Source: Watersipora subatra (lineage: Eukaryota; Bryozoa; Gymnolaemata; Cheilostomatida; Watersiporidae). Taken from it: 64,000 nt of DNA. The stretch lies in assembly GCF_963576615.1 (NCBI RefSeq), contig NC_088717.1:24951344-25015343 (forward strand), given 5' to 3'. The notes under the pieces are model-generated. The model did no database searches and had not been told where the DNA came from. It saw only the letters and a list, made by a program, of their open reading frames with translations. The position numbers were made by a program, and so were the translations under genes. Below, piece by piece: positions 9,601 to 40,203 of the stretch. Position 1 is the first letter of the stretch. The number at the start of each line of letters is the position of its first letter.

Positions 9601-12600
9601 GTTATCTTCGGTGTCCAGTCTCCCGAGGTGCTGCATGTGTGCATCTTACCAGATGATTTATTTAATCTGTAACCAACTCTACAGGAGACGACTTGTGTTT
9701 TAGACCCAGCTGTGTATATGTGACCTTTTCTCAAGCCGTGTGTCACTGGCATGCCGCATGATATGACTACAACACATTGTATGATACATGTACAATGCAC
9801 TGTGGTCTGGCATGCAAAGCAGATAGTAAACTGGATTGTGATTGCCTCTGAGATTACATGTATTACCAAATAAATGTTTATTAATATTAACTGCTATCTA
9901 TAAAACTATTTGCAGGAAACCATCACGAAGCCCTTCAATAGACCGATGCTCACATAAAATGAAATGGATGAGCATTTGCCTTCTCCTGTCTCTATTAAAA
10001 CCTCTGCTTGTATGTATGTAGATTTTTTCATACGAGGTACAGTGAGATGAGGTAAGTTTATTTAGAATGGTGCATTTTGTGCATGTAGATTGACTTTAAT
10101 AAAATACTATTTAGAAAATTCGGAAAAACATTTTAATAAAACATTATTCAATAGCACTTTGTGTAAGATGATTTATAACAATAGTTAAACAGGTTCAACT
10201 ACCTGGTTGGTTGAAGCTGTTGAGGATATTAGCATATTGCGAGATCTGCTGAGCTGCCCCATTGTCATCTTTCTCAACCTTTGGGTATCTCGTCAAGGTT
10301 CTTGTGAATAAGGATTCGTATGAACCTACCAAAGCTGTAAGAACAGAAATAGACATCTGTATTACACTGATTTGTCACAAGCTTTCATCAATCTATGAAC
10401 TTCATCCTTGACAAGAATAAGCAAGATAAACATACGGTGATATAATAAATTTATAACACAATAATATATACATATAAGCCTCAGTGTTTGTTTTTTTTTA
10501 TTTTTATTACACCCTGTGTCCAGTTATAGCATTTCAGATCTAGCAATATAAAATCTCCCGACAATGGATTTGATCTCGGGACCTAAAGATTCAGAGGCAG
10601 CAAAATTAACCATTAAACTACACCGAATGAAACAGTTCCATCAAGCAAGTAGTCATTAAATTGGTCAAGATATTCACACTTAAAGTGCTTGCTTGGGATT
10701 AATAACCAACACTGTTGACCATTACGAGGAACAATTGTTAACCTGTCCCGAAACACTGGTATTGTTTTAGTATAAAGATTTTAGTAAAGATCTAGCTTTC
10801 AAAGTAAGTTAGTCAAATTTGTTAGGTAATACAATATACATGTATATATAGTACTTTATTGGCAATAATTTCGTTTCTCAAATAGGAATGTTTTTCAAAT
10901 TAGGCCATACAACGATAGTAAAACAGAAACAAAAAAAGAAAATAAAGCAACAGTTAGCTAATAAAATTGAATAAATAGTCTGATAAATAGGGTTTGAAAT
11001 ATCTTTCTCTGTTGTGAAAACGGATATTAGGTGGAAGATTGTTAAAGCAGCCAGCAATGATATTTTCAAAATAATTGTTAAAAAGATTGTATAAAATATG
11101 TTCATATCACGATTGTTAGAGATTGTATAAAGATTTTTCATGTCACGTAAGTTGAAGTGAGTTGAGAACCTTTGACTTTCATGTGAAAAATAAAGACACA
11201 AACCATGAAAAATCTAGAAACCTTGAACTGAAGTAAAAGAAATATTTAGCATAGGCAGAGTAAGAAGATGCAAAGATTTGAAAAAATTCTTCCTTGTAAT
11301 AATATATGCAGGAATATGATGTAGATTTGCAATGAGTCAAAATGCTTTTTTTTGCAACAAAATTAAATCTTTTGTGACATATCTTGGAGCTAGATTATAA
11401 TAAATGTAGTTACCATAAATAATATGGCAAAATATAAACTGATAATCAAATGCAATGGCAGATTTTGAGTTCACGTATGGCCTGCAAAACTGGAGCAGAG
11501 TCAATGACTTCGTGACCTTACTAAAAATAATGTCGACATGATTACTCCAAGAGAGTCGATCTGTCAAAACAAATCCTAACAATTTTGTCTCATGTCTATA
11601 AGTGATGGATTGACTGTTAAACTCAAGAGTAAAGCTGTTTCGAAGGTTTTCATTAGTATTATAAAAAAGAAAATTTGATTTTTGTAAATTGATTGTCATA
11701 TGACTTGAAGTACACCTTCTGAATAGGTAATTACTTGAATTACTAATAGTAATAATAGGTAATTATTACATTTGAAGTACATTTGAATAGATAGTTATTT
11801 TAGCAGATCTATATTATACTATGCTTTGACTTGTGGATACTATTTATCAAGAAAATGGTAAGCTACCTTACAGTGTAGAGTTCCAATAATGCAAATTGTG
11901 TTCAAAGGTATAAAGAGATTGTTAAGTTCAAAATGAAACTTATTTTAACATAGTCTGTGGAGTCATTTGTTTTAAATACTTAGAGAATGGGGCATGAAAT
12001 CATTCAAATGTATCTTTTAAAAAGACAGCACAACAACTATACATAAAAATTGCTCCTCTTCTGGCTTAACTGTCTAGCTTTAAGATATGTTTACATGAAT
12101 CACATGTTTAACTTGATGGTAACATATCAAACATTACATGTAACACTTACATGTATAGGCAAATATACCAAGCAGGTAAGTGTGTGTGCAAACTCAGCTA
12201 GCAGATGGTGAAACAACTCATTATCACCGTCATCTTATTAATTAATTATAATGTTGATATTGATACCGACATTCTTCAGACCAATACCGTAAAATATAGT
12301 TACGGTGTTATTAATAGGTATGAAAGCTGTAAATAAATTACATAATTGAACACAAACAGAGATTTCACAACCGAAATGAATAAAAAAAAGTTTTAAGATA
12401 TTGAGTCTACTGCTCACTCTGGCAGTTTCTGAAATTAATTTCAGCAAAACTGAAAATCTTTAGAGATAATGAACGATTCTGCAAGTATAACTATTACTGT
12501 CTACCTCATAGTTTGGCAGTTAAATTGTACCTACCATCTGCAGACGACTCCAAGCCAGATAGCAATGACTTTCTTTGAACTGAGCTCTGAAATTTTATAA

Positions 12601-15600
12601 AACACACGCTAAAACAAGTGTATGCCATTTGCAGTATTACCATGCATAACAGAAGTACAAAGTTTTGTTGAAAGGTTCTTATGCTTAAACCCGCTGCGAT
12701 AAGTATCAATGTAGCTTAAACCTGCTGCGATAAGTATCAATGTAGCTTAAACCTGCTGCGATAAGTATCAATGTAGCTTAAACCTGCTGCGATAAGTACA
12801 TGTATCAATGTAGCTTTCAAAATGAAGTCACATTTCTACGCAAAATTTTATTTCTTCCAAATGTTTGTTTCCATGGTCACAACTTTTTACGTTGAAACAA
12901 ATATTTTTTTTACAAATACATTTTATAATCTATCTGATTTGCCTTAAGACTCAAAACAGAAACAACAGAATTTAAAATAGTTATATTATCAAAAGTGCAT
13001 CGATATAACTATGTTAAAACTAAATGTAAAATCTAAGCTATATTTACAAATTAAATTAATAAGTATTAATTATCAGAAACAGTAGTATTTTATTGTTAAT
13101 TTATTTAAGAGATATTGGAATAAACATGCGGCCTCTGCATTGTGAACCTTCAAGAATACAGTAACTGACATAAGTACAGTATATAACTTACTCTAACTTA
13201 CACTACAGAACGTTCTATTTAATCTGTGTTTTTTATTATTTTTACACTCCATTTTTATTTTTATCAATTTTAATTCATTCACTCACAAAATATATATAAT
13301 AATATAAATCTTTTGAAAATTTGAGCCATTATATGTTGTAAATTACTTTGTATATTGACGCAAATATTTGCTTGAATCTTACGCTGCGTGTTAAAAAATT
13401 CATGCATAGACTCCTTAGTCAAGGTGAACCTTAAGTCAAGATTTTGCTGTTGTAATTTATATTAATAAACTTCTGTTTAGCATTTTTAAAGTTGATGAGT
13501 TCTACATAACTTAAAAATAAATTTGAGCGAACATCGAAATCGATACAAAAAAGGCGAGTAATTTTTTTATCAATGATTCTGTAACTTTTTAGAAGTTGTG
13601 AATAATAAATACATAACAAAAATATTTTTTAGTAAATTTCCACTTTGCATGCATGTACGTGTGCATGGGGGTGGCCATGGGTGAGAGCCTGTGTGTGTCT
13701 GTGTAAATACTAAGTTTTTACATTTTTGGCTTGTTTCATTCAAACTTAAAATATGTATGCCTTTGACCAGGCTGCCAATATATTTGATCTCAAAAATTTG
13801 TCTGGGTTTTTAAATAGCCACCTCTTAAACATCTAGTTAGAATCTCAAAAATGTGCCTTCACATTCATTGAAGGTGGAAAATAGACCTCACTAAATGCAT
13901 TCGTAGATTGGTATTGTGCAAGCAGTGTAGCAAATTACGGTATGTTGAAGATCAACACAAGTGTATATTTAAACACATGCTGCGGGCTCCTTGATTGGAG
14001 AGGAAAATAATCTCGGTAAAAATAGCAATAATAATGAAACTAATAGTGATTGATGACTAGAAAGTATTACTAAGAGTCACTGTAAGGAGACTGAACTATT
14101 CAGCAGGGCACTTGTTAGCTAGGATTCACATCTTGCAGAATATCTTATCAACTTAATACTGGTGAAACTAGGTCGAAGACAAGGAAATGCATCGGCTAGC
14201 TAAAACTATATTAATAAAACTTATTAGAGTAACATAACAATATTATTATACATATAATAGCAAAGAACTGTACCAAAATTTCAAATTCTTTTTGGTGGGC
14301 TGAGAAGCCTAGTCTTATTTCATCAACCCAGCCTTAGCCCGTGTTCCAAAATAGTGATAATAATATGAGTAATAATACTAGCAACCATTTGGCTACCAGA
14401 TCGGCCACAGGCTCAGTTACAACCAACCTTAATAAGAATGATAGTAGGTTATTGCACAGCTCACCAAAAGTGAACCTTGCAATGAAAGGTGGCAAGAAAA
14501 AGATAAGAGGCAAACAATGTTAACCCGAGTCCTTGCATGTGTTGGTGACGCCGGAACTAAAGCTGCGCTCATTATTTTTACCCACTTAAAATGCAGAATG
14601 TTGATATCATTGACAGCTAGTGAAATTAACACTTAACTATAAAAAGTATTTTCAAAGTTGTTCAGCCTGGTTTGTAATTAACCAGCTGAATGTCGGGCAT
14701 TGCGCTAGTAATAAAATAATTACCTAATTATTTTGAGTAACTTAAGCTAGTAAAGCTAGTAACCTACTATAATAAGAGCTGTGTTCTACATCTGAGGCCA
14801 GCTTGTGTTACGTTACTTATGTATAATGATCTCTAACGCAATTATGAGCTTAAAGTGTGCTAGCGATACATTATTCATCTGCCCTATTATTCCTTGCATA
14901 GCAAAAAGCTGCCTAGTGTAGTGGGTTAGCTTGACTGTCTGCAGGCCTGTAGGTTCTGAGTTCAAATACAGTGCAAAACAGTTTTGTCATTCATAGAACT
15001 TAATCACTATATCTGGACAGACGAATGACAGAGAAATACTGAAATTTATGTACATCTATATATATATTTCTCAAAGTTTGTCCGTATGTGTATTTGTAGG
15101 ATTGATTGTCTGACTATTATAGAAATTATTAGAATAGGTGTAGCTGGACAACAATGCAGACTCAAAGTCATGGCTTACCATCATTAGAAGCCTAATCTTA
15201 TTAAGCAGCTTAGTGGAATATTCCATTGGCAATATGCCAGGCTACTAGCTTGAAAGGTACAGTTGTTTGACAAAGTTTTAAAACCTTTACAGTTGTTTTT
15301 ATTTTTTCTCTTAATTTATTTCAACTACACAAAAAACTTCTCTCATGATATGTAATTTTAAAGTTGGAATGGGAAATGTTGTTATATGTTAAATACAAAT
15401 CAATTTTCTGTTCAAAGACTTTTTTATTACCCAGGGGTAGCACAGCTAGTAAATTTATAATTATTAACAGTACGCTGGCAGTCCGGTGAAATCTAAAAAA
15501 TTTGTTTCAATTATCGAGTGAAGCAATATTATTTTCTTAGTATTAGTGTTGCTTTGGATAGATAGACAAACACAGCTCTTATTATTGCAAAAATTAATAG

Positions 15601-17035: not shown

Positions 17036-20000
17036 CACAATAATATACGTTCATTTCTTAGATTACTAAAATAACAAAAATACGAAGACATTTGAACATC
17101 GCGATTAATAATCTATAAATAAGCAGTGAGATTGAAAACTGCTCTAAAATTGGACTAGCTGAGTTTTATGAAGAAATAGAACCTTTTGTTAAATGATAAG
17201 AGCATTTACTTTAGTTACTTATGTTGATTAAGTTATAGCTGTGGTTCTTAACCCGGGTTCAATTTCAGGGTTTGGTCTCAGGTTTGGCGAGTCACCAAAC
17301 CTGAGACTAACAAAGTTCTTGGGGTTTGGTGAGACAGTCTCAGGGGTTTGTTGGAGGTCTCCCAAAGGCAATAGAAGAAATCACACTGATTTGCAAAGTC
17401 ATGTTTTATGTTAAGATATCGTGAGTTTGTGTACTGTATCGGTTTCATTCTTTAAAAGCAGTAATGTTAATGCACAGTTAATTTTGTGCACCAATAAAAC
17501 ATGTCTTGAATGTGAAAAAAAATTTAGATTTTATTTTTTGGTAAAGAATGGTTCGGTGAAAAGCATATGAAACTGGTAGCGCACAGTGCGATCAACCAAT
17601 TTAAGAGCCACTGAGTTACCGGCCTTGACATTTGACACTGATAGATAAAACATTCATTAAAAATTTAGTGAAAGAGAAATGAAAATCGTTTGCTGAGTTT
17701 CGTTAATTCTCCCACTCGTTGTTGGTAGTTGGGAACTAAAACAGCGCTGCTAGAGAAGAGATGTTTTACAGTTACTAGGCTCTGTGTTGGAAGGTCTGGT
17801 AGTAGTACAACCAAAAATGGAAAGTTATCTCATTTATAGGTTTCCTAGGCACACATGCGCACATACAAGTTACTGTTTTAGTACTTTCTACAGCAAATAT
17901 TTTTCTTTAACGTAAATCTCTGATGAAAAGGTTGTTGTGAAATTATATGCATTTATGTAACTTGTAATTAATGTAATCTATCTAAACTTTGCTAGATTTG
18001 GCTCACAACTAGCTAGTTAAATTTGCAAAAACAGTAGATATATAAAAAAATTCAAAGCACATCATTATTTGGAACACCGCTGTAGCTTTAAACTTACTAT
18101 TGGAAAACATTCCTTGTATGTTGATAGTGCCAGCATCTCTGTTTGATTTGAGCAGAATGTGGACACCTGTCTGGGTGTGCCGTTGGGTCTTGCCATTCAG
18201 TGTCAATACATTACCCTTGCCATAAATAGCAGCTAAAACAGAATAAAATTAAATGAGTAAATGTAGTTATTTCATTTTAGTATTTGTTCATCATAGTTAA
18301 ACAGGAGCTACACACAGCTATAGAACTTTCAATAAAATTGTCTTATACTGGCCTATTTATCAGTTCATGTACAATATGAGTTATGTATATGGTCACCGTG
18401 TATATTATCTGTAGTTTTTGATCAGGTTTTACAGAGTTCTCATAATAGTTGATTGTTATGGAGCACAAAGAAAGTGTGACTTCTTTTTTAGTTTGAGCAA
18501 ACCAAAATAGGCCGGTGCGCAATACTTTTTATTTGAATTGGTGTTAATATTGAAAACTTATTATGTAAATAACAATCATCGCTATTTTGTGATCTTACAC
18601 AACTCCTCCATTATAACAACAACTAATATATGTGGATGAGCACCCATATGAAACACAAAATAGTTTATAACAGGCGATAGACAATTAGTCCCAAGTCTCA
18701 AGTCATCAGTCCCAAGACATCAGCCAAATCTTGCCTATTGCCAAGATCTTCCAGATTTTTTTGATGGAGTTAACTTCATTGTTGAACTTGGATCTGCATG
18801 TGTTGGGTAGAGAGTTTTTTTGGAATTGTTCCCTGCTGAATTACTTACAGCCATACTTCTTGTCGGTTTCTGTGAAACAGCTCACCATCTAAGTCAATGC
18901 AATATGATCTCCCTGATAGCTGTTTTACTACCTTCACTGCCTTCCACTCTTTTTTGTGGTTGTGTAATCCTAGACCCTTACTGGCTAACCCTCAGCTAGC
19001 TCCGGCATGTTTTGAGCTGACCGGTTGTACCTCTCCTCACCTTTCTTTTAATTTCAAGCTTACTTTGGCAATTGGCCACCACTTCAGGCAACTCTGCAGA
19101 TGGTTGTGGCATGACCAAGTGGGTAGACTTGCGTAATATCTGCTTTGATGGACTTGCCCCAAAGTTTCAGTAAGGGTATTCCTGCACTCCAGAATAACCA
19201 GGTAAAGAGTTTTTACAGCATCTTGGTTGTCTTTTGGTGGTTTTGACCACTAATTTGGCCTTTTCATTGGACTGGTAATAGTGTGGGCTGCTTGTCGAGT
19301 GTGCAAAACCACAGGTGCTTGCAAACTGATGAAACTCAGCTGACACAAAGTATGCCACATTATCGAAGTCTACCAACTTGGGTACTTCTAATCTTGAAAA
19401 TACATGTATATATTTTATTGCGCATACGACATCTTTAGCTGACTGACTTTGAATTCTAGCAAACTCAAAACAGTCTGATGCGTAGTCAGCAGCCACTACA
19501 TAATGGTGCCTTTCGTACTCCAACAAGTCAACATCAACCTTGGGCCAAGGTTCAACGGGAATAAATTGGCTCCTGAGCTCCTTTTTTTCTCTGCTTGAGT
19601 CCATCAAATAGACATATAGAGCATGTATCACATCTTCTAGTGACTTCTTGGTCCATGCTCAATCAGAAAACAGTGTAGCTGGCTCCCTTGACTGTTGATT
19701 TGATTCCCTAAAGCCCAGCTTGAAGGCGGCTTAGCATCTCCGATCTCAGCGTTTAGGGAATCAGGGCTCATAAACTAAAAAAAACTCTGTCTTTCCCAGT
19801 AATATCATGTTTGAATAAGTTGTAGACTCTCAGGCTGTTTGGCAACAACTTTGGCCAAACCCACTTAGTATAATTTGATCATTCCTGCAGTTCTGCACCA
19901 AGTTGTCTTCTTTCGGATATCATCATAGACATGATCAGACATAAAACAATTGATTCGCTGTTCTGCTACTGCAAAAATATGTTCTCAATCAGTGGGTTTT

Positions 20001-23000: not shown

Positions 23001-26000
23001 ACTATAAGCATGTCAGTATTTATCGTCCATCCCTACGATGAATAGCGGGTTACGTATTATAATAGAGGCGTGTACTAACCGGAGATTCCCGTTAATGCGC
23101 CCTAGCGGTGAAAAAAACCAAAGAATAGACACGCCCTTATATAAAAGTAGCGGCTAATAGTCGGAAAAGTACGGTACTCTATAAAGCGGACAGACAGATA
23201 CACAGATAGATAGACAGATAGATAGACAGACAGACAACGATTGCCGTTTATATAGTAGATTGTTCAATAAAAGTCAATGATTCTGGTCATATTGTAGTTC
23301 AGTTAAGTACTTAGAAATCCGACACACAGTACTTACATGTATGTTCACAGTATATACATGTATGTTCACAGTAGTTAAATGTATGTTCACAATGCTCCTT
23401 GATTGTATGTCAATAGGAAATTTTTTCCAGAACAGCTCTTAGCAACAATCAGCAGTGTCAAGAAAGAGCAACAATAACTATTAGCGGTTGGCAATAGCCA
23501 ATAACACTCAGCAACAATCAGCTGGTCTAATAAGTATTCAACAAATAGCACCAGCATTGTTTAATGGTATTTAGCAAATCTAAATGTTTGCATTTCAACC
23601 CATCGTTACTGCTATACTTCTAAAGAAAAAATTGAACAATCTAAGTGCAATACCCATGCTGTGGCCCTTGTCAACTGTTGATCCATAGATTGAGTCTCCC
23701 GCATAGAGTAGGTTTCCTATGTTATCATAACAGCACTGAGCTCCTGCTCCTGTAGGGTACCTGCAGCATTAAAACACAGGCTCTCCGTTAAGATTCAAAC
23801 AATACCTCACCTGTACACTTTAATAGCGAGAGTTAAAAATGTAACTTTGCCAATCAATAGAAAGTTGCCGAAGGTCAGTTAATGTACATTTTAAAATTTA
23901 TTAAATATTCTGTTTTTTAGCAAAGTTAATTTTTTATTTATTTGTTGAGTTTATAACATGAAGTAATGCATGGAGGAGGTTAAAATTTTTTCTCTATAAA
24001 ATTATAATTAAAGAGTATTTACTGTGAAGTATTGAAATATGTTAATTTTATTGAATAGTAAAAAAGCTCTAGTCTTATGCATATGAAACAAAAACTAAAA
24101 TTGTGGTCTCATATTAGGACAAACTTGAGGCATTTCACAATGAAAGCCCTAGTGGGAATATTGCTAACCTAGTTATGTATTGCTAGGCACATGCATAGAA
24201 AGCTAGGTGGATAGTGTATAGACAGATAAAAGAATAGATAGACAGTTGGATAATTATATAGAAAGTCATATGAATAGATAGATATATAGCTTGGCTGATC
24301 AATTGGTTAGATAGAATAATGCATACAGATGTATGAGAACATACAACATAATGGATGAAAAAGGACAGATAATACGTCAAAGGCATTTGTTCCACTAAAA
24401 ATCAAAGCCGCGTTACTGTCAGAGTTATACACAGTAGTTTGTTCTCTGAGTGCAACTCATTATGACCCCTTATTTTTTTCTCTTATAGGTATTGTGTACT
24501 ATTCGGTCAATGCTATGTGTAGATTTTTACAGAGTATTCTAAACAATGACATAACTAAATTGGTATTGATTATCAAAGGGAACTTCCCCTTAAACACGAA
24601 TATGATGAAAGAGGTGAAATCTAATCTTTGTTTGTATGCATAGCACATGTCATTACGCCATGGGCCTTTCCCGTGTTGGAAAAAATCTTTCACACTTGCT
24701 AAGGGAAGTTGGAGTTTCCAACATAGCCTTAGTTTTTAATGAAAATTACAATATAGGCATTACTGCGTAGCAAGGCTTCAGCAACAGAATATTTTGGTCT
24801 ACAATTCTAGAAGCTTCCAGAATGCATTCATTGCTTATATATGACATGAAGTCAGGCATTTTCATTCAGTTTACAGTTGGGACCTGTTACAACAGTTAGC
24901 AAGATGTCAGATGCAACAAGGAACTTGAGGCAGTATCACGACGAGAAGGTGAAGCCAGATGCAATGGAGAGTCAAATCAAAAGAGGTATAATGCTTATGA
25001 ATATGCATTGGGTGAAAGGTACAACACCTGGTCATATATATATTATGGTGAATAATGGTAAACATGTAATTGTAAGTATTTTCGGTAGAGCAATCAATTT
25101 ACAATCTTATGTATGTCTTACAGATGCAGGTATGAAGTTTATAACAACTTCAAAATATTTAAAAAAAATTTCAAATCACTTTCATAGCCCTCTATTACAT
25201 GTACCCCATACATTTCATCACCTGCTCATCTTTAGCTCTAAGTAATAATTCATACATTTCATCACCTGCTCATCTCTAGCTGTAAGTAATAATTCATACA
25301 TTTCATCACCTGCTCATCTCTAGCTGTAAGTAATAATTCATACATTTCATCACCTGCTCATCTCTAGCTGTAAGTAATACTTCATACATTTCATCACCTG
25401 CTCATTCTCAGCTCCAAAATGATGATTTTGCAGTCATGCATGTGCTTGCAAAATTAACATAGAAAGTTCTCCTAGGCTAGTTCTATTGAAAAGACTTACA
25501 CCTTTCTTAAACACATTCAGCTATTCATAGTGTATTTAGCAGAACCAATATATCTGGTTTGATTTATAAAAGCCTCTCTCTAGTCGTACTGTAAAACCTA
25601 TTCTTTAATCTCTGCTGATATTACCAAAATGCGTAATGTGATGAGCAACTGTCTCATAAAACTACCAGGTGCATCTTTATGCTTTACGACTGGAACCTCT
25701 CTAATGAGACCCCTTTAAACTAGAAATTAAATTCTATAGTCTTCAATTTCTAATATATAATATACACAATGCAATCTATAATGTATGATCTTTAATCTGA
25801 TATCAATAATTTATAATCCACAATTTACAATATATAATGAACAATCTTAAAATATATAATGCATAATCTATTATAATTGGTATATGATCTATAATCTATC
25901 ACATGCAATCTAGAATCTAGAATTTACCCTGCTCTTGTTGGTCTGTATTTTATACAAACATCAAGCTTTTTTGATTATCAAAACACTAATATAACTGTAG

Positions 26001-29000
26001 ACAACATATTCTGAGTAGGAGGCTGCATGGAGTGCTCAAATAGTTTTAAAGTGAATTTTTATTGTATTCCGAACACTTTGGTATCTTAAACCAAAGAAAT
26101 GTCTACACAAACAGATATACAAAAGAATTTACATTAGTGTCTTCAAGAATAATAAAAATTAACAATCAATTACTTATACCAGGATTTGGGTTAATGAACT
26201 TTCTTTTATAAAATAAGTAAAAAAAGTGTATCATTCTTCTGTAAGGTAGAAGTGTTGTGAAATGCTTTTGAAAACTTTGTAGTTATCTACTCAATTGACA
26301 ATATGAGAAGATAACAAACATTTAGTTCTGTGTTAAAGAAATTTAGTCAACTATACTGTTTTTAACCATACCAAGAGCTTTAATTCCAAATTTCACTGGC
26401 TACCAAACTTTTTTTATGTAATAGCCAAAGGTATTTTTTCAAAAATTCATAATATCTTATGAAATAAAATAATAAACATTTAATGGATATGTATTATTAC
26501 TATTATTATTATTATTATTGCGTCTGTTATAATAATGATAACTATATAATTTACATTATAATTTCTTTTATTATGGTTTTTAGTTCAATTTTATTGATAT
26601 TATTAGTTATTACCAGTACGCCGATCAGTTTCATGCACCATGAGAGATCATCATGAGTAATCAGTATGTTCATTATTAGTTTGTGAAGTGGTAAAGTAGT
26701 TGGGTGGTGTAGTGGTTAGTGTTCTAGTGTATAAATTAGAGTTTCTGAGTTTAAACCCTTGGGAAAAACTAATGTTTTTTTGACGTTCTTATAGCAGGAC
26801 TTTGAACAAACGGGCAGTTTGACTCCGTTCTTATTATAGTAAAGATTATTGTTGTTTTTTAATCTATCATTAGTATTATTATCATTGTCGCTATTATTAT
26901 TTTAGTGAAAGTCATCAATTGTTACTAACAACTTAATTAAAGGTGACTTATTTAATATATATCATTATGCTAAATTATTGGTAACAGGTAGTCGTGTTCT
27001 CTATATTGTCACGAGAATGCAAATCTGAATTACTGTAAAGCCTATTAGCTTTAAAGCAAAAGCTATTATAACTAAATTATTTGTATCAACATAAAGCCTG
27101 TGATCAATTAGCTAAATTAAAATAAATAATATGTAGCTTTTGGTTTTATATAACTCAAAAATAATTCTTTAGACAAACCGTTGGTACCATAATCGATAGA
27201 GACACTCAATTTCCGTATGATATATTCCCACGAGCAAACAAGCGGAGCGAAGTGTGGGAGTTTTTATGATAAATGCATGTGCACACAACTTACGAAAATT
27301 ATTCATCAACAATGAGACAAACCCGTGGCTAGAAATTTCATCAACAAATTTAAGCATCGGAATGTAAAGTCGTTAAAGTATAATAACGAGACAAAACACA
27401 TTTAAACCTATTTGAATATGTTACCAAGTCTTTGTAAACCGTCGGTATTATTTTTAAACTTACCCATCTGATCGGATTATACACAAATAGACAGATTAAT
27501 TTGAACGAAAATTGCCACAAAAAGCTTGAAAAGCTCGGTTTAATAAAAGTTAAGACCGAAAATCGAAACGCCAATAAAGCCGTGCGACAGATAGTAGAAC
27601 TATTTAGCAGTGCGCATTTCACGAGAAAACCATGCTCATTTCATCAGTCTATGGCATTTGTTACTTGTAATCGAATTTATTCAAAGGTTTCTGTAATAAA
27701 CGTAGACCATTTGAGGCGTAGACCGATTTACAGGTACGAAATTGTGAAACACAGTTTATCAGCCTGTGTTTTTTGTCCAATCACCGAAGGTTTCATTATT
27801 TGAAACGTTAGCCGAAATTCTTTACAACTTATGTACAAGCTAGGGCCGAACTACAATGCCCCTTCATGACGAAAACATTTTTTATTTTGCTACAGTTTTA
27901 TACGCGTGAATGCTCCTACTGCTTTTTGTTAAAGATCGCTTATCAAAACCATTCTACATTCAACGCAACCAACTTTCAAACTGTGTATAGCTTGCCATTT
28001 TACTTCTAATTTTGCATTTCAGAGTTATAATAAACATATTTCTTTGTTGTTGTTGAATTACATACATTACAGTAAATTAGGCCTACAGCTTTATAACACT
28101 TTTGTAACAGCTTTTATTTTGCTGCAGTTTGCAGAAATCTTCGAGACGCGTGAACGCTCATAGGTTTTCTATTATTGCTGTATTACTATATTAACAATAT
28201 TGGTTATTTTAATAATATCAGTGCATTCTACTTATAATATTGGCCAACATTGCATTTCTCCTATTGCAAGGGAGAGACATAAACGTGTAATATTTTCCTT
28301 TCATTGTTGTTGTTTGTCATGACCAAACACTTTTTAAATAAATTTTCTAAAAACCTATATAAATACCACAACTTCTCGATATTGCTACCTATGACGTTTT
28401 GAAATGTAAACAAAATTGTGTATTGGTTTTCTATTATTACTATATTAACAAAATTGATTATTCTAAAAATATCAGTGCATTTTACTTTTAATATTGGCCA
28501 ATATTGCATTTCTCCTATTGCAGGGGGAAAATATAAACATCTTTTCTATTCATTATTGCTTATTGTTGTATATAATAACACCCACACCCAGTACATTACA
28601 GCTACCATTGCAGTTATCCTATTGCACTGCAGAGCCATTTGATTGCTAATATTGCATTTCTCAACCATCAGTACCCTTTATTTTTTTGCCAATATCTCTG
28701 GCCATCTCTTTGGTCGTGGGCTGTATGACAGTGGAATTTCTAGTAAGTAAAACATGAGTTTTTTAAAAACACTTCAAGTCAAGTGGTTTTGTTTAGAGAT
28801 GGCTACAGGAGTGATTGAGCAAGTGAGAAGTAGCATTCCGAATGCTGGGAATGTTCAGTACACAGGAAGTCAGTATGAAGGAAATGCTACCAGAGGAGCT
28901 TCAGATTTTGATGTGATGATAGATGTGGCGCCCAAGGGAAGCAGTTTTCAGTATGAAAAGACCGACGCACCAGGATTTGGTAAGCTGAAATATCAATCAG

Positions 29001-32000
29001 GAGCTGACGATGGTTATACTGGCAAAGTGGTTACTGGAGATGGCTATCTGTCAGGAAAGAATGTCATTGAAAAGCAGGTGCTTGTATTATACTAATTATC
29101 AGTGCAACATTAATGTGCCAGTTTGAAACAAAACCAATGAGAGACTGCTTTTTAAATCAGTTTTAATGAGCTCTTTTACTGAAGGTAGAACACAAAAATA
29201 GTACAAAATTTAAAATGGAAAGTTGTTTATGTTTAACTCATTTTAAAGCCAAATTTCGATTTTTCTTGGTGTGTCTTGTGTGTGCTGACAAGCAAGAATG
29301 CTGCCAGCCCCACCTCCTATGATGCGATGCATATGCAATAATTCATAGCAATCAAATATAGATATAGGACACTATTATACTTTAGTGAAGGTGAAAAGAG
29401 AGCTTTGTCACAAGCTATAATCCTAATATTCAAACAGCCAATAGGAAGTCATACTAATATTTAAACAGCCAATAGGAAGTCATACTAATATTCAAACAGC
29501 CAATAGGAAGTCATACTAATATTCAAACAGCCAATAGGAAGTCATACTAATATTCAAACAGCCAATAGGAGGTTGAGTAAGAGTAAACAGAATATCTCAA
29601 AATCAAAATAAGCTAAGGAGGATGCAAAACGGCACATAATAGACTGTATATCCTTACTAATCAAGAACTATTTAGGGTTGATAGCAGAGACACTCGCAAT
29701 TATATCAATAAGTGGATTTGTTTCTGAACAATGTTCTGGCCATCTTAGACAAGCTTTGGCAAAAGCAGAAAATTTTTAAAATGTGTTTGTTTAAAATTGC
29801 AATTTATAATAAATGTAACCAGCATTTGTTCTTGACCTGTACTTGTGTACCCAAGCACACACATTAAAATAAACAATACAATAAGAAATTACACATGATT
29901 AAAACAGTGTTTTGATTTCTGTAACATTCAATTTTATTTTTAAAACAAAGAGCAGACGTTTCGGCTTTGGTTCTGAACCAGGAAGCCAAAACCAGAATAA
30001 ATATACTTTTGGTTCTGGTTCTGGACCAGAAGCGTAAAACCAGAATTAGCAGAGAGCAATCTTCTGGTTAAAATAATAATAGTTTATTAACATGATAACA
30101 TTTTTATATACTTGAGATCACTCTACGCAGCCGCTATAGTATAGCCATTAGGACAATGAAGCTGCATAGAGTAATCTTAAATAGCTTGATTGTGACCTTT
30201 ATGAGGCTAACAAAGTATAATTGATAACAGCATTGCTATTCATAACTTAAAAGCTGCCTAATACTATTGTACCTAAAATATATGACATGAAATGGAAAGA
30301 GTACAAATTCATGACTAGTCAATATGCTCCTCAGTTGTTTTACCTTTATTGACATAATCCTCTTACATCCTGTGATTGTGACCGATTTTCCAAAGAAAAT
30401 ATAACAGTAAAATGTTAACAACTTTACGCTGTTTGATTTCTTCATGCCTGGATGTATGCAAACAACCAATTATAGATTTGCTTGCATAGTCTGTTTTTGT
30501 GTAATGCCATGATAAAACTATATGACTAAGCATTCTAAGTTCTCAATACACAATAATACTCCAGGTATGTGTGTATAACACAAATTTATATATTGTGATG
30601 TTGTCTCAATTTTAGTGCAGTTAAAAGAGATATTTTAGGTGTTTTCATAAAATTTAAATTCGATTGATAAAGAAACAAGATTTCAACTACTATTACAATT
30701 TGCTAACTTTTGGGCTATTGTAATTATAAAATTGATAGACAGCTGTGTGCAATATACCTAAATCTTTAGCATTTCTTATTACTCTTTATTATTACTGTTA
30801 TATGACAACATCTATGACTAGGTTTGTAATGAGTGCTGCTTATGAGATAAAAAATTAGGCCATCTTTAACATGTAGTAGTTATTTAGTAGCTGTGTAGTA
30901 TTTATGTAGTAATTATGTGGTAATCATGCAGTATGTGGCAGTTATGCGATAATTATGTGGTGACAGTGTAATGCCCAAGCATTACCTTAGTTAGATAGTC
31001 AAACAAGAAGTTGTCTATATAAATGTAATGACAAGACTTAACATTTTTTTTCACCTGTTTTGCTGCTTGTGCAAAATAGTAAAACATTTATAGATTGTTT
31101 CATGAGAGAATAACTCTCGATTAAAATAAAGTGGTTTGCCCGCAGTAATTTTTGTAGAAGGGTTAAACGTTGTGACGGTCAATATAAAGTTGCTTTAATA
31201 GTGTTTGCCTTTGTGTTTGATATTGGTAGGTACAGCCGGCGGTAGATAAATTGATTGGTGTTCAAAACCACGGAGGACACCTGAATGTCAACGGAAGAGA
31301 GATTGATGTAAAGCGATCAGTACACGGACCAGCCATTACTCTAGATCTAAAGTCAGGCAAGCACGAGACTCAAGTAGATATTGTACCGACTGTTGGACCA
31401 GAACATGTCACGGGAGGGAAAGAAGGAGTCAGCTTCGTGGCTAAACCTTCCAGCAACGCAGTTAGTACTTCCTTTGTACTTGGTTAAAGAAACAATTACT
31501 GCACACTTGTTTGCATTCTGAGAAAACATTACCTCTACTTTCTTAGCACAGTATTTTTCCATATGCTGCATGGGTCTTTCTGCTGAGATAGCTTGCTAAA
31601 CCTGTACATTTCTAAGCCAAATAGAGTAAACAGCCATCAAATACTAATCATTTCACGACTGCTGGCTCGTCACCTGATACTCTGGCCCAAATATCTAGCG
31701 ACCTGGCCTCTTGACAAATGACCACCAGTTGCTATAGCTAGACTATCTAGTAATCTTGCTTAAAGGCAGGTAGTCACCAGAAGCTACATATAACTAGACT
31801 ATTTGCTTAGGTTGTTAGATCACCACCAGATGCTGTGGCCACACTATCTAGCAGCCTTGTCACTTTTACACTTCTATTATATAGAATTCTGTTTATTGGA
31901 ATGTATTCGTCAACTAAAACCATCAGAAGTTGACATTCCTGCTTTTTGCTGCATTTTGATTCAGTGTCATTGATGAGAGCAAAATGACCATTTACATGCG

Positions 32001-35000
32001 TTGCTTTGTTTTAGACTGGAAGTAGGAGGGAAACAGAGTGGAGACAATCTACTGCCGTACAGGAGAAGGAGACATTTAAAGGGGTTCACCACGGTAACCA
32101 GGTACACAGTGAAGTTCTCAAAGATGCGAAAACAGCGCGAGCTGAAAACCCTGCACTACGTGAGTTGAGGATTGTGTTCGCGCTTTTATCACAAACAGTG
32201 ATTTTGAGCTTGTGAGATATGGAAGACACCGACTCACCAAATGTAAATTTCATTTTTTGAACTTTTATTGTCGATTCAATTCTAGTCCTAGTTCTTAATC
32301 AGTTTCATAGAAGACAATCTAGAAGTTACTTTTCGTGAAAGAAATATAACAAAGTTTGAAAATTGAAAATTAGCTGCAAAGAAATATTTTATTAGTCGAT
32401 CAACCTATAAATAGCTGATCAACTTATAAATAGCTGATTAACCTATAAACAGCTTATCAACCTCTTAATAGCTGATCAACCTATAAATAACTAATCAACC
32501 TATAAATAGCTGATCAACCTATAAATAGCTGATCAACCTATAAATAGCTGATCTACTATATAAACAGCAATCGTTGTCTGTCTGTCTATCCGCCTTATAG
32601 AGCGGTCTTTCCTTTTATCGTCGAGCGAATTTCGGTCGTATGAAGCGAACTGAACTAACATGAGTAGTGACTGTAAATAAGTTAAAAGAGCGGTCTTTCT
32701 TTTTCCATTCGGCCGTACGATGCCAACTGAATTAATATTAGTAGTAAATATCGTAATTTCGGACTATTAGCCGCTACTTTTGTCTGACGATTTGAGCCAC
32801 GCGGCTTATATAAAGGTGGGCGATTCTGTTGTTTTTCTTTCACCGCTAGGGCACACTAACCGAAATCTTCGGTTAGCACGCTTTTAAACAGCAAAGTTGC
32901 TGCCGTGTTAAAAAGTACCGTCCTGAGTTCTGCGGCCTATACAAAGGTGTCTATACAGCTATACAAATGTACTACTCATTAAATAAAATAGATTAATAAG
33001 TAGTGATTTACATGCAATTAATATTTACTGCCATCGTGTACCGAGAAGGTCACATAAACGTTGGAAAAAAACGCAGTTCTCACCTACTAAATTTCCACAT
33101 CAAAAAGGTAAGTGTTTCTTATAAAATGTTATATTGTCTATGAATTGCCACATCTCCACTACTTAATAAAGTTGGATTTGCCGCTGTTCGTGATAGTGGG
33201 ACATGTTCATTTCCTTCAGCAGCTGAGTTACTAATTTTTTTCCAGCTACGAGTAGGCCTACTGTAACTTACTATTACAGAACTTGCACGTGTACTCCGAG
33301 GGTTGCGATAGGCGATTGTGAAAAGAAAGAGAGCAGCTGCTATCAACTTACTGTCACCCTGCTTCAGCCATGACCAGCTATACGTCGCCTGCTCAAAAGT
33401 AGGCACAAGCCGAAAACTGTTTCTTCATACGCCCGACAGAAAAACCAAAAATGTTGTCTATCTGCAAGTGTTGCGTTGAACTAACATTGTGTTATTGTTT
33501 TATGTTCTTCATGTTCTGCTATACCACATGCAGCATTTTCTAACATATTTTTCAGTATATATATCTTTTCATGCATTTGTTTTCCTTATTGTATCTCATA
33601 CAAAGGCTATCATGTTGGCGTTTTGTTTTATTATTGTAAGGTGCTAATGCTGTATCTGCCTTGACATCATACTGTCTGTGCTGTTATACATATAAATTTT
33701 ATTGACACAACCTCATTACTGTTTGTATATACCATGTCAAAACACAGGCTAATAATAGATGAAAAACTGGTGAGCTATGATTAGTGTTTTAAGAATGTAG
33801 AAGTCTCCATTCAGTAAATGCTGGCGATAACAAAATATTTTGTATAATTTTTTAAAAGATGCAAAACTTTTCCATACTGCCAGTTTGAAGAACTTCAGTT
33901 TGCCTAGCAATGTCAATTTCATTATCAGTTCTCTGTACACAAATAGGGCAACTCCGATTTGAGTGGTTTGAGACTGATGCATTGTAGACTAGCTGTAAAA
34001 CTTATGACAGATTTACATTGTTCTCCCCTACATTATTGACCTATATGACTGCATATGTGTATGCATAGTGTGATCAGGGCAAAAAATTCAGTAAACTGCA
34101 TATTTGGAGTCGTTTTACAGTATGAAAGACAACTCTCAATAAACCTCTTGCTGTACATGAATCTGTTCCCGTGGACGGGTAATGCAGCTAGCAGTTTGGG
34201 GCCGTGGCGTCACTCGGGGATGCGCGGGAGACCTTTATCGCCCCGAGTGCAGCGAGAGTATCCAGGCGCGGCTTTCCGGATGAGTTGGCGAGTGCGAGGC
34301 GATTGATTGCGAAGCGATTGAGTGCTAGGCGATTGATTGCGAGGCGATTGATTGCGAGTGAGAGGCGATTGATTGCGAGTGCGAGGCGATTGATTGCGAG
34401 TGCGAGGCGATTGATTGCGAGGCGATCGATTGCGAGGCGATTAATTGCAAAGCGATTGAGTGCGAAGCGATTGAGTGCGAAGCGATTGATTGCAAAGCGA
34501 TTGAGTGTGAGGCTATTGATTGCGAGGCGATTTATTGCGAGGCGATTTACTGCGAGGTGAGTGCAAGGCAGTTGATTGCAGGGCGGGTGCGGGCCGATTG
34601 ATTGCGAGGCGATTGATAGCGAGACAAGTGCAAGAGCGCGATGGTCAACTGCGAGGCGGGTAAAGACTGGTCAGCCAAGGCGGGTAGACGCACCATAGTT
34701 GGGTATGACGGGCCAGGCCATAGACGGGTATGAACGGACGCATTAATCTAGACACATGAATCTAGAATATTTACTAGATGTTACACGCATCTAGCTGTAA
34801 AACACATTGCAGATTTCCATTGTTTTCCCAACATTATTGACATAATATGTGTATGCATATTCAGGGCAACAATTTCGGTAGACTGCATATTTGGAGTTGT
34901 TTTACAGTATGAAAGACAACTCTCAATAAACCTTATGTTGCACGTGAATCTGTTTCTGTAGGCGGTAATGCAGCTAGTCAACCTATAAACAGCTGATCAA

Positions 35001-38000
35001 CCTATAAATAGCTGATCAACCTATAAATAGCTGATCAACCAATAAATAACTGATCAACCTATAAATAGCTGATTAACCTATAAATAGCTGATCAACCTCT
35101 AAATAGCCAATCAATCTATAATTATCTGGTGATGCATTTCTTTCTAAGCGACTATAAGTTAGTCTTTGAAATTTAACCACACTGTGATTGGATCAAATAA
35201 AATAAGAGTGATAATAAGAATAAGAGGTATTGAATTAAAAACTGGAATATAAACAAAAACCTTCATTAAAGATTAAACAGTTCCTTTATTTATTGATGTA
35301 AACTCTTGTTCATATCTAGTCAACTTCTTATGGCTTCTTTTAGTAATAAAACATTACTATTTTCTTTAAGTTATTAGCTAACTTTTGATTGCTCCAACTT
35401 CTGATACCGACAAGTTGCTACTTTGATTCTTATCTAGATAATTGACTGAGTAAAAAATGAGGTTTTCTTCTAATAACTCATCATCACTAGGCTTTGTTCT
35501 GCTTTTAGCTCAACTTCTCACTAGCTTTTCATTGATCTTTCAAACTGTAAGGCATGACCACTTGCAAATGTGCTTGTTTTGTCATGTCCTATATGGCTTC
35601 CTTGTCTATCTAATATTATTAATTCTTGAAAGTTTAAATTTGAAAACCAACTGCAAAGTAAAAATGCTTTTTGAGAAAAATTCAATGTAGGTGAATAAAG
35701 GTTTGATTCCTGAACTGTGCGAACTTTTAGTAAGTGCTTGATTGAGTAGTTTGTTACTGAATTCAAACCAGAAAATCTACAACTTTTCCAACTACTTTTC
35801 AAATTTACATTAAGCAGTAAGGCTACCAGTACTCGTATACTATTATTAAAACACACATTTATGTAATAAACTAATATGAAAGGAAAACAAGTTGTTTGCT
35901 AAAAAAAGACTACTCTAAGATCTAAGGCTGCAGACATATATTAAAGATAAAGAATTGGCAATAAAAATATAATAATATAAAAAGGAACTAACAACCATCA
36001 ATCTATCGATATACATGTACTTATAAAACTCAGGTCCTATTGTACTCTTTCTTGAAACTGGTTTCCTAGAGAAATATTATAAGTGATAGCTGAAGCATCT
36101 CAAAAATATTGCTGTGGGCAGGATTCAAACTCATGACAATCAGTTTAAGATGGCAACATCCTACCAACTGAGCCAATTCAACAAAAGTGCAGACTTTTAG
36201 AATAAGTTTCACTATAATAAAACATATACCGTAATGTTAGAATCATCTCACGTGAGAGAACAGTCATGAGAGCAGACTTTCTACGGCTTATTTAATTTGA
36301 CAAAGTAAGTCTATTTGAAGCAATGCTAGGCTCAATTCACAATCTTAGAAGTTTTGATTTCTATATAAATGTGCCACAACCTATCTGATTAAGAACTCAA
36401 GAATGCGCTTAGGCATACATTAATGACAACAGCCAACAATGAACGTGTTCCTTGTGTCTCATTACTACTCTATTATAACAACTTGGTCGGGTCAGACGCA
36501 GTTATAGCTCGTTTGAATACTACGTAACCCATTGAATGAGCAGTGGTCATTTTGGTAGGATTATATATAAAGTCATGATTTCAAATGGTATCTCTATGAT
36601 TCCCTAAAGAAGCAAGTTTAATTAAAAAGAAGCATAGAGTTATCTCTAATAAGCACATTTACAATGTCGGGAAAAAGTTAGTTTGATCAGTAACATCAAA
36701 GGCAAGATAACTCCACCTAAACATGTCTATGTCTCTTTTTGATGCTGTCGTCTACATGCATGCTTCAGCCAGCTGACCTATTTTTTACTCTATTATTAGA
36801 AAGCATGCCTGACCCATTTCTTTCTGTATTATTAGAAAGCATGCCTGACCTATTTCCTTACTCTATTATTAGAAAGCATGCCTGACCTATTTCCTTACTC
36901 TATATTATTAGAAAGCATGCCATCATACGTCGCAAAAACAGCACAGATGAGTCTCATTGCAAAGGATGAACAGAGAGTGAGTCAAGGCAGTCAACCAAAA
37001 TCATGGAGTCCCGCTGAATCTGCTGATAGATTGCAAGATTTAGGAAAGGTAATATGTGAGATAACTTGGCGGTATTTATGTAAAACAGGAGACTAAACTT
37101 AGTAACGAAATTGCTATGAGAATCACCAGTAAGGTGCTAGAAGGGTATAAATGCTTGCGTAAATACAAAAGGTGCTTTTGCATTCCTTTCTCGTAAGAGG
37201 TACTCACCCGTTTACATGTGGGTCGTTCTGATTTAAATTACCTGGTCTTAGCAAGTTCAAAAAAAATTCAGTAATTTTCATTCTGATTGAGGCACATGAT
37301 GGTACACCTTAACAGATTCAGGCAGGGTCTGTTGGCAACAACATAAGTCCATATTTGGTGTTGGATCACTAATTTCAACTGTTCAACATCTTTACAAATT
37401 CTTTAATCTCTGGAGCGCTTGCCTTATAACAAATACATTGAAGTTATTTTAATAAGGTTGGTTGTCGGTAGATTAATTGCTGTGACGATCTCATGTTGCT
37501 AAAAACGGCATGGAGAAGATAACTCCAAGTTTATAGATTTATGGTGTTTATGAAAAGAAATGAACAACAGGTGTTTTACAGTTTACCATTCATGATTTGA
37601 GTTTATTTGGTAGGAGTTGTACCAGGGACTAGACAGAGGGGACATGAGAAATCCTCATAATCCAGCAATGAATGTGCTGAGTAAGACAACTGCTGCCGAT
37701 AGACAGGAATGGAAACAACAGATAGGGGCTGATGGGAAAGGTCTGGTGAATCTAGCAACAACTGAACCAAAGAAGTAACATTGACTTAAGCCAAACCAGC
37801 TATCACAGAGAGTGTGGGCTGAATTGATTAAAAGTTTTGATTTTTAAACTGGTAATTTGGCATGGTAGACTGAAATATTCCCAGATATCTGTGATTAGTA
37901 TGAGTAGCTTAAAACACATAGTTGTCATTCCTCACAATTGGCTAGTTTTTAATGTAGCTGATACGTATTTACAGCGATAGATGGTATGACAGTATTACCG

Positions 38001-40203
38001 TCATCACTCTGAACTTGAGTACTGCCTTTTTGTATTGTATAGTTACTGTCTTCTAGTAGATTAAATGTAGGTGGCATTTTGAGTCATTATTTTTTAGATA
38101 AAAACATTTGTCGTGATAGTCGTTCACATGCAGGCCGAGCTGACCAGCTGTCTGTTTCTATTCATTGGCTAGTTGGTAATAAAGTGTAGTAGAAAGGATA
38201 AACACATGAGCACTACATACACAACAGTAGCCAATCAGCAAAGATCAGCAAAATACAGCTAATAGGATTGGCTCTAGGTTAGCGTTAACACTTACGATGG
38301 CCATATTGAGCGTACACAGTGTTCAGCCCTCTTGTGGTAGTAACAGTTGGCAACATCCACTTTGTTGTACATGTTACAGCCAGGGTCGGGTACAAACCTT
38401 CCGATATCACCTATGGCTTGATCTTTGGAACAAGGGCAGTCCTACACAAAACCAAACAAATAATACACAAACTAGTAAAGTTAATAAGCAAGGTACCTCT
38501 ATTGGTTAGCTATTGTAAGTTCTTCTGAAGCTGAGAATTGGGTGCACAAACAGTTAGGCACATGTGAGAGCTTCAAAATAAGTACATGTAGGTTATAACC
38601 ATGTGTTAGGATGTGCCACTACTGAACATGGAAGGTTAGGGGTAAATATGTTTGGAGTCAATAACTTGCAGTAAAGATTAGATACAAAAACAGGCATTTA
38701 ATGTGCTACCATCTAACACTGCTTCCTTCAAAGCTGGTTCACACTACATTGTCATAGGTCAACGTTAATCCAACAATACTTCTAGTGAACACTTCTGTAA
38801 AAACAGTGTCACGTAATCACACACCCATTTGCATTTACATCAGCTGGCAGGCTGCGGAATAGCATTTTCATTGCACAATGCGTTGTAAAAGTGGTGAAAT
38901 ACTAGTCCTGCAGCCACTGTCATGAAATAAAACCCTGATCAAGCAACATGCGACAGCTGTCATGAATGCTCAGTGAACCAATGAGAAAGTGTGACAGCCA
39001 CAATCTTTGCTAGCGTATTAGTGTTGCCTCAATAATGCCATCAATTTATGTTACCTACACATGATCAACAAATAATGGTCAAGAGAACAATGCCGACATG
39101 CAGTCATATAGTGAAAACCTGTATTAAAAAAGAGGCTGTGCGATGATGCAATAACCTCTATGACAAACTGTCTTGCAAAAATGTTCCTTGGTCTGCAGTT
39201 CAATACTAACCGATTATCTCGGCCGTAATATTTTGCTAGGCGTTACATTATGCACACTTAGAAAACAAGGCATGCACATGAAGATATAAAAATGCTTTCC
39301 TGGAAAAGAAGTTATGCTCATGTAGTCACATGAAAGATTATCATAAACTTCAGGTGTAGCCTTGGGAACACAGAATACACTAAAAAAGTGAAATTGTGTA
39401 ACAAAGTGTTTCCGCTCTGTTGAGTTTTGCTGTGAGTATTTGCTAAAACATTCTACATTTCCACAATAAACAAGTGGAGATTACGTACCTCTAGTTCACT
39501 CAGCCAACCAAGTCCTTCTCTGCTGTCCTCCACAAACCAGTTATAGCACATTTGGGCTGGCCAGGTCTTTCCCATGACACGATCAAGCTTCTGGTTGACA
39601 AACCAGCCCAAAGCAAGAGGTCTAGACCACAGGCGTCTAAATAATGGAATTATACATTGTAGGATATATCAAAACCCTAACGTTGCATAACATGTAAGCA
39701 ACAGTTAATAAAATAAAACCCTAAAAAGTGGGGTAAGTGAGCGGACAAACAAAGACGGAATTTCCGCTCAGACTTGTGATATCATAGTCAGGAATACTAG
39801 CCAATTTGTTGAATGGGCAAAATAAGTTGGACAGGTGGATGTTATCATTTATGCAAAGAATATTATAGTGTTTCATATTGTTCACTTTTCATATTGTTAT
39901 AGTGATGTCATAGCTCTTCTCAAGTTGGTACCAGTAAACAGAAATTAACTGCAACAAAGAATCCTTCACCTTATACTGACAGGACTGAAATGCATTTTCA
40001 TTCATCTAATTCTTATAACCAGAGTTCCAACATGTTTAAAAAGTTAAATTAAAGAGCTAATTAAAACCTATTACCATCCTTCAATGTAATGTTGATATTG
40101 AAAATGAGGCTAAATAAATTTGTAAGGGAAGTCACACTATGGAATACAATAAATACATTTTATATGACAGCAGTGCTATATAAAACAAATATATGTATGT
40201 GTA

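Follow-up and report, generated by a model that had tools for sequence, protein, structure and literature searches.

The cGLR gene, its host gene and its protein

The window analysed here, a 64-kb stretch of DNA from Watersipora subatra, carries a plus-strand gene that, when spliced, is the NCBI entry "cyclic GMP-AMP synthase-like receptor 3 [Watersipora subatra]" (cGLR); the joined exons reproduce the protein, P0001, exactly. In its entirety, promoter included, the cGLR gene is nested antisense in an intron of a minus-strand host gene, and this intron splits an AMOP domain. The exons are as follows.

24904..24985, plus strand: cGLR coding exon 1 (first of the joined exons that give P0001)
28797..29077, plus strand: cGLR exon 2, with the GS loop and the DFD catalytic motif
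31230..31460, plus strand: cGLR exon 3, with the candidate third catalytic acid (QVDIVP, D171)
32015..32159, plus strand: cGLR exon 4
36912..37048, plus strand: cGLR exon 5
37614..37778, plus strand: cGLR exon 6, with the stop codon TAA at 37776-37778
38300..38440, minus strand: host gene exon, first AMOP part (ends approximate, by eye)
23650..23765, minus strand: host gene exon, second AMOP part (ends approximate, by eye; on its own it matches AMOP profile positions 70-105, E 1.5e-6)

Three placements of the exon 1 junction encode the same protein, and the one chosen has GT-AG. A 379-aa model with a GTAAGT donor at 25072 was set aside because the NCBI protein uses the donor at 24986. Joining the 25072 donor to an acceptor at 28784 keeps the frame open and adds 33 residues in the N-terminal part, and the 379-aa product is a possible alternative splice form. 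A tandem repeat (36773-36921, four copies of about 36 bp) has the splice acceptor of exon 5 at its end, and each of its units bears an acceptor-like end, ATTATTAG/AAAGCATGCC; these are possible tandem acceptors.

The joined minus-strand pieces of the host gene match AMOP positions 2-104 with an E value of 5.1e-26, and we presume that this gene is perhaps mesh/SUSD2-like. By eye, the minus strand has more host exons near 39490-39640 and possibly also past 42 kb, which would place the start of the host gene far to the right of the heat-shock element (HSE) described below. Two other minus-strand open frames, at 19167-19658 and 11337-11762, resemble by eye pieces of a retroelement integrase and reverse transcriptase.

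The earlier note had called the plus-strand gene cGAS-like, and the family, motif and fold analyses agree with it. Pfam assigned the cGLR protein to Mab-21 (E 1.3e-7, above the cut-off), with Mab-21_C below the cut-off (E 0.0026); submitted as single exons, one of two gave no family and the other gave Mab-21 below the cut-off (E 0.0082). The criteria for cGLRs include a G[S/G] activation loop, according to PMC9980059, and P0001 has G51-S52. The [E/D]h[E/D] catalytic pair is present as D64-F65-D66. For the third acid, expected 50-90 residues later, there are two candidates, D147 (80 residues on) and D171 in QVDIVP (104 residues on); judged from its context, by eye against cGAS, D171 is the likelier counterpart.

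A single-sequence fold prediction of low confidence (mean pLDDT 50) was submitted to Foldseek. Three of the 783 matches to this low-confidence model had an E value of 0.001 or less, and all three were cGAS or cGLR; the best was 7lt2 (E 8.3e-6), and the TM-scores were 0.25-0.32. Both homology and fold thus point to the cGAS/Mab-21 family. The protein shares with Tribolium cGLR (7lt2), Stylophora Sp-cGLR1 (8gjy) and human and mouse cGAS the Mab-21 nucleotidyltransferase domain, the GS and [DE]h[DE] motifs and, as far as the weak model shows, the fold. It differs from them in its very divergent sequence, its lack of cysteine and the HSE in its promoter.

The zinc ribbon of vertebrate-type cGAS contains cysteines. 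Cysteine is absent from all 346 residues of the bryozoan protein, which therefore has no zinc ribbon of the cGAS type. This ribbon is tied to the ligand, in that RNA-sensing insect cGLRs are without it and it belongs to DNA sensing in vertebrate cGAS. Judging from its sequence, the cysteine-free bryozoan cGLR is in that respect closer to the RNA-sensing insect cGLRs than to vertebrate cGAS. A protein search of a kind that detects only relatives with short exact words in common returned the protein itself and nothing else, both at E values up to 1e-3 (1684 candidates) and at E values up to 10 (2034 candidates, 5.8 billion sequences). The cGLR is very divergent and perhaps restricted to bryozoans. 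A sequence search of the PDB with the 379-aa model gave two matches, the better at E 2.2, neither of which was cGAS.

The heat-shock element and the probable core promoter

Upstream of exon 1, the following features were found.

24579..24587, strand not assigned: second kappaB-like 9-mer GGAACTTCC, doubtful (same loose pattern as the next)
24711..24719, strand not assigned: kappaB-like 9-mer GGAGTTTCC, doubtful (loose pattern written after sight of one site)
24805..24822, plus strand: four-unit HSE of the palindromic pattern TTCnnGAAnnTTCnnGAA (12/12 match, the only one in the window)
24836..24843, plus strand: TATA box TATATATG (13 nt 3' of the HSE, 32 nt 5' of the initiator A)
24866..24871, plus strand: putative initiator TCAGTT (from sequence and spacing; predicted start A at 24868)
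24868..24903, plus strand: predicted 5' UTR of 36 nt with no ATG (from the putative initiator)

An HSE is defined by a minimum of three alternating nGAAn pentamers in register. The earlier note had claimed four HSF pentamers without mismatch at 24805-24822, and both the sequence and the coordinates are correct: TTCTAGAAGCTTCCAGAA reads as TTC, GAA, TTC and GAA separated by TA, GC and CA, so that all 12 fixed bases match and four perfect pentamers stand in register. Read in the GAA-first register the same element has two mismatches, and the TTC-first register gives the perfect match. The spacings of 13, 32 and 36 given in that note are also correct if counted with the initiator A (24868) as +1, the cGLR ATG being at 24904, 36 nt past this A.

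A scan of 63,983 positions in both registers found 12/12 matches at one position, 11/12 at none and 10/12 at nine, one of the nine being the perfect HSE itself shifted by 5 bp. Outside the register of the HSE, no position in 24300-24959 exceeded 9/12, and this region thus contains one HSE; several HSEs, as in HSP70 genes, are not obligatory. A perfect three-unit HSE, GAACCTTCAAGAA, lies at 13144-13156 and is the only other three-unit HSE in the window, where about 0.3-0.4 per 64 kb and register are expected by chance. The stretch 24400-24990, examined as a possible repeat copy, occurs nowhere else in the window.

The HSE is situated 13 nt before TATATATG, that is, upstream of a TATA core promoter as in heat-shock promoters. 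Published accounts describe, for abalone HSP70, a predicted TATA box at -27 to -32 and five HSEs, one of them closer to the TATA box, and, for Drosophila hsp70, four HSEs, each with three or four pentamers. The bryozoan promoter resembles the former in having an HSE close to the TATA box and the latter in having an HSE of three or four pentamers, but these HSP70 promoters have several HSEs and a chaperone product, whereas the cGLR promoter has one HSE. Of the 47 TCAGTT sequences on both strands of the window, one has a TATA[AT]A 24-34 bp upstream of it, and this one is in the cGLR promoter itself. With a looser initiator, a TATA box at such spacing occurs at 11 of 204 sites in the window, so that TATA box and initiator alone are weak evidence. 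The layout as a whole, from HSE through TATA box and initiator to ATG, supports the view that this is a promoter of the HSF-driven type.

The loose kappaB-like pattern has nine sites in the window, two of which fall in 24400-24903 (504 bp), where about 0.07 would be expected. The stricter 10-mer GGGRNWYYCC has no match in 24400-24903, nor have the ISRE, AP-1 and STAT-type patterns. Because the loose pattern was written post hoc and the strict one gives no match, the two sites upstream of the HSE are a hint only, and a weak one, of a possible Rel input.

A possible chance match and other possible roles of the element

We consider it probable that 24805-24904 is the core promoter of the W. subatra cGLR gene and that HSF induces this gene on heat or proteotoxic stress. 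The element might instead have arisen by chance within an AT-rich intron, the cGLR promoter being ordinary or located elsewhere, for example at an upstream non-coding first exon. To estimate the chance rate of HSEs, Markov models (orders 1-4) were trained on the 64-kb window. Per 64 kb, the models predict 0.0064-0.0036 perfect sites of the TTC type (order 1-4), 0.0129-0.0077 perfect sites in both registers, and 1.8e-5 to 3.0e-5 perfect HSEs per 150 bp promoter in both registers. In 12 Mb of simulated sequence (orders 1-3), 0 to 0.0053 perfect sites per 64 kb were obtained. Sites with up to two mismatches numbered six against 4.8 expected from shuffles; near-matches are thus no commoner than in shuffled sequence, and only the perfect HSE match counts.

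These rates, about 0.004-0.006 sites in the window in the TTC register and 2-3e-5 per 150-bp promoter, argue against a chance match, as does the fact that HSE, TATA box, initiator and ATG fit together in position and order. On the other side, an assumed 25,000 genes should between them have 0.45-0.75 perfect HSEs by chance in the 150 bp upstream, the looser TATA-initiator pair recurs in the window at the frequency given above, and the HSE stands alone. The earlier note had judged a chance match at this place very unlikely. With many windows and motif types read, chance is to be regarded as unlikely. A genome without a heat-shock regulon should contain fewer than one such case, and a genome with one should contain many real ones. 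The comparison speaks for a real element but is no proof of one. On balance we regard the chance match as unlikely.

A real HSE could also serve constitutive, developmental or germ-line expression, through HSF or another HSF paralogue, and not an immune response to heat. HSFs also have non-stress targets, and we infer that a single proximal site would be compatible with modest control. However, the strongly inducible Drosophila hsp70 likewise has HSEs of three or four pentamers, and we hold this role to be improbable. It is more improbable still that the HSE is an intronic enhancer of the antisense AMOP-domain gene: the element is indeed intronic to that gene, about 1 kb from an AMOP exon, yet its distance from the cGLR TATA box is that of a promoter element, and the further minus-strand exons seen by eye put the host start far to its right.

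Proposed heat induction and comparison with other sensor genes

Induction of the cGLR by HSF, the reading that we prefer, would proceed from one strong HSE, which occupies about -63 to -46 of the core promoter. On heat or proteotoxic stress, trimeric HSF would bind the four pentamers and increase transcription from the TATA/initiator promoter. The cGAS-like nucleotidyltransferase would then accumulate alongside the chaperones and, on meeting its ligand, would produce a cyclic dinucleotide.

The earlier note knew of no description of such a link between proteotoxic stress and cGAS-type immunity. For nucleic-acid sensing at large this is too broad: mammalian ZBP1 is reported to be induced by HSF1, and Nematostella RLR promoters respond to heat, so that sensors of nucleic acid under the control of stress are already known as a kind. 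The narrower case of a cGAS-family enzyme was not found: in a limited search of open-licence literature, no title or abstract opening reported that a cGAS or cGLR promoter contains an HSE. The novelty would lie in an animal whose HSF directly controls an enzyme of the cGAS family.

According to a review (PMC9499459), which cites Yuan et al. 2022, the promoter of mammalian ZBP1 contains an HSE, and in heat stress HSF1 raises ZBP1. The bryozoan gene is like ZBP1 in encoding a nucleic-acid sensor, in its case a putative one, and in having a promoter HSE. ZBP1 is, however, a mammalian Z-nucleic-acid binding RHIM protein and the bryozoan cGLR a predicted nucleotidyltransferase, and induction by HSF1 is reported for the former and only predicted for the latter.

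PMC12530282 describes reporter lines for RLRa and RLRb of Nematostella vectensis that respond to 37 degrees. These heat-responsive promoters resemble that of the cGLR in belonging to sensor genes of an invertebrate, there antiviral RNA sensors, but RLRa and RLRb are RIG-I-like genes, unlike the bryozoan cGLR. Neither HSF nor heat shock element occurs in the main text of PMC12530282, and a possible trigger is the increase in resident viruses that it describes within 30 min. The paper also reports that in the coral Stylophora at 34.5 degrees CGAS-like1 was lower and STING2-like and others were up; heat induction is therefore no general rule for cGAS-like genes. In C. elegans, according to PMC12919956, resistance to bacteria is promoted by HSF-1 and protection from virus is conferred by heat shock, and there appears to be antagonism between HSF-1 and the intracellular pathogen response.

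Several points count against a cGLR induced by HSF. The HSE is a lone one, against five in abalone HSP70 and four in Drosophila hsp70, and the Stylophora CGAS-like1 is lower in heat. Many windows were read for many motifs, which makes such a coincidence less surprising. The fold match comes from the poor model described above, and no relative of P0001 was found at E values up to 10 with which conservation of the HSE could be compared. A further reading, which we put forward only tentatively, is that the cGLR is a heat-shock gene kept low and armed by HSF, possibly with a second input from Rel/NF-kappaB through the two kappaB-like sites. Nucleic acid set free in heat, whether viral or self, would then be sensed at once.

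If the proposed induction is correct, an invertebrate cGAS-family sensor is directly controlled by heat-shock factor, and proteotoxic stress is joined to cyclic-dinucleotide immunity by a direct HSF-to-cGLR axis in animals, parallel to the reported mammalian HSF1-ZBP1 link. It would also explain in a simple way part of the activation of antiviral genes by heat in some marine invertebrates. For Watersipora itself, PMC3082523 gives a thermal limit of W. subtorquata; the Hsp70 measurements in that paper are from two tunicates.
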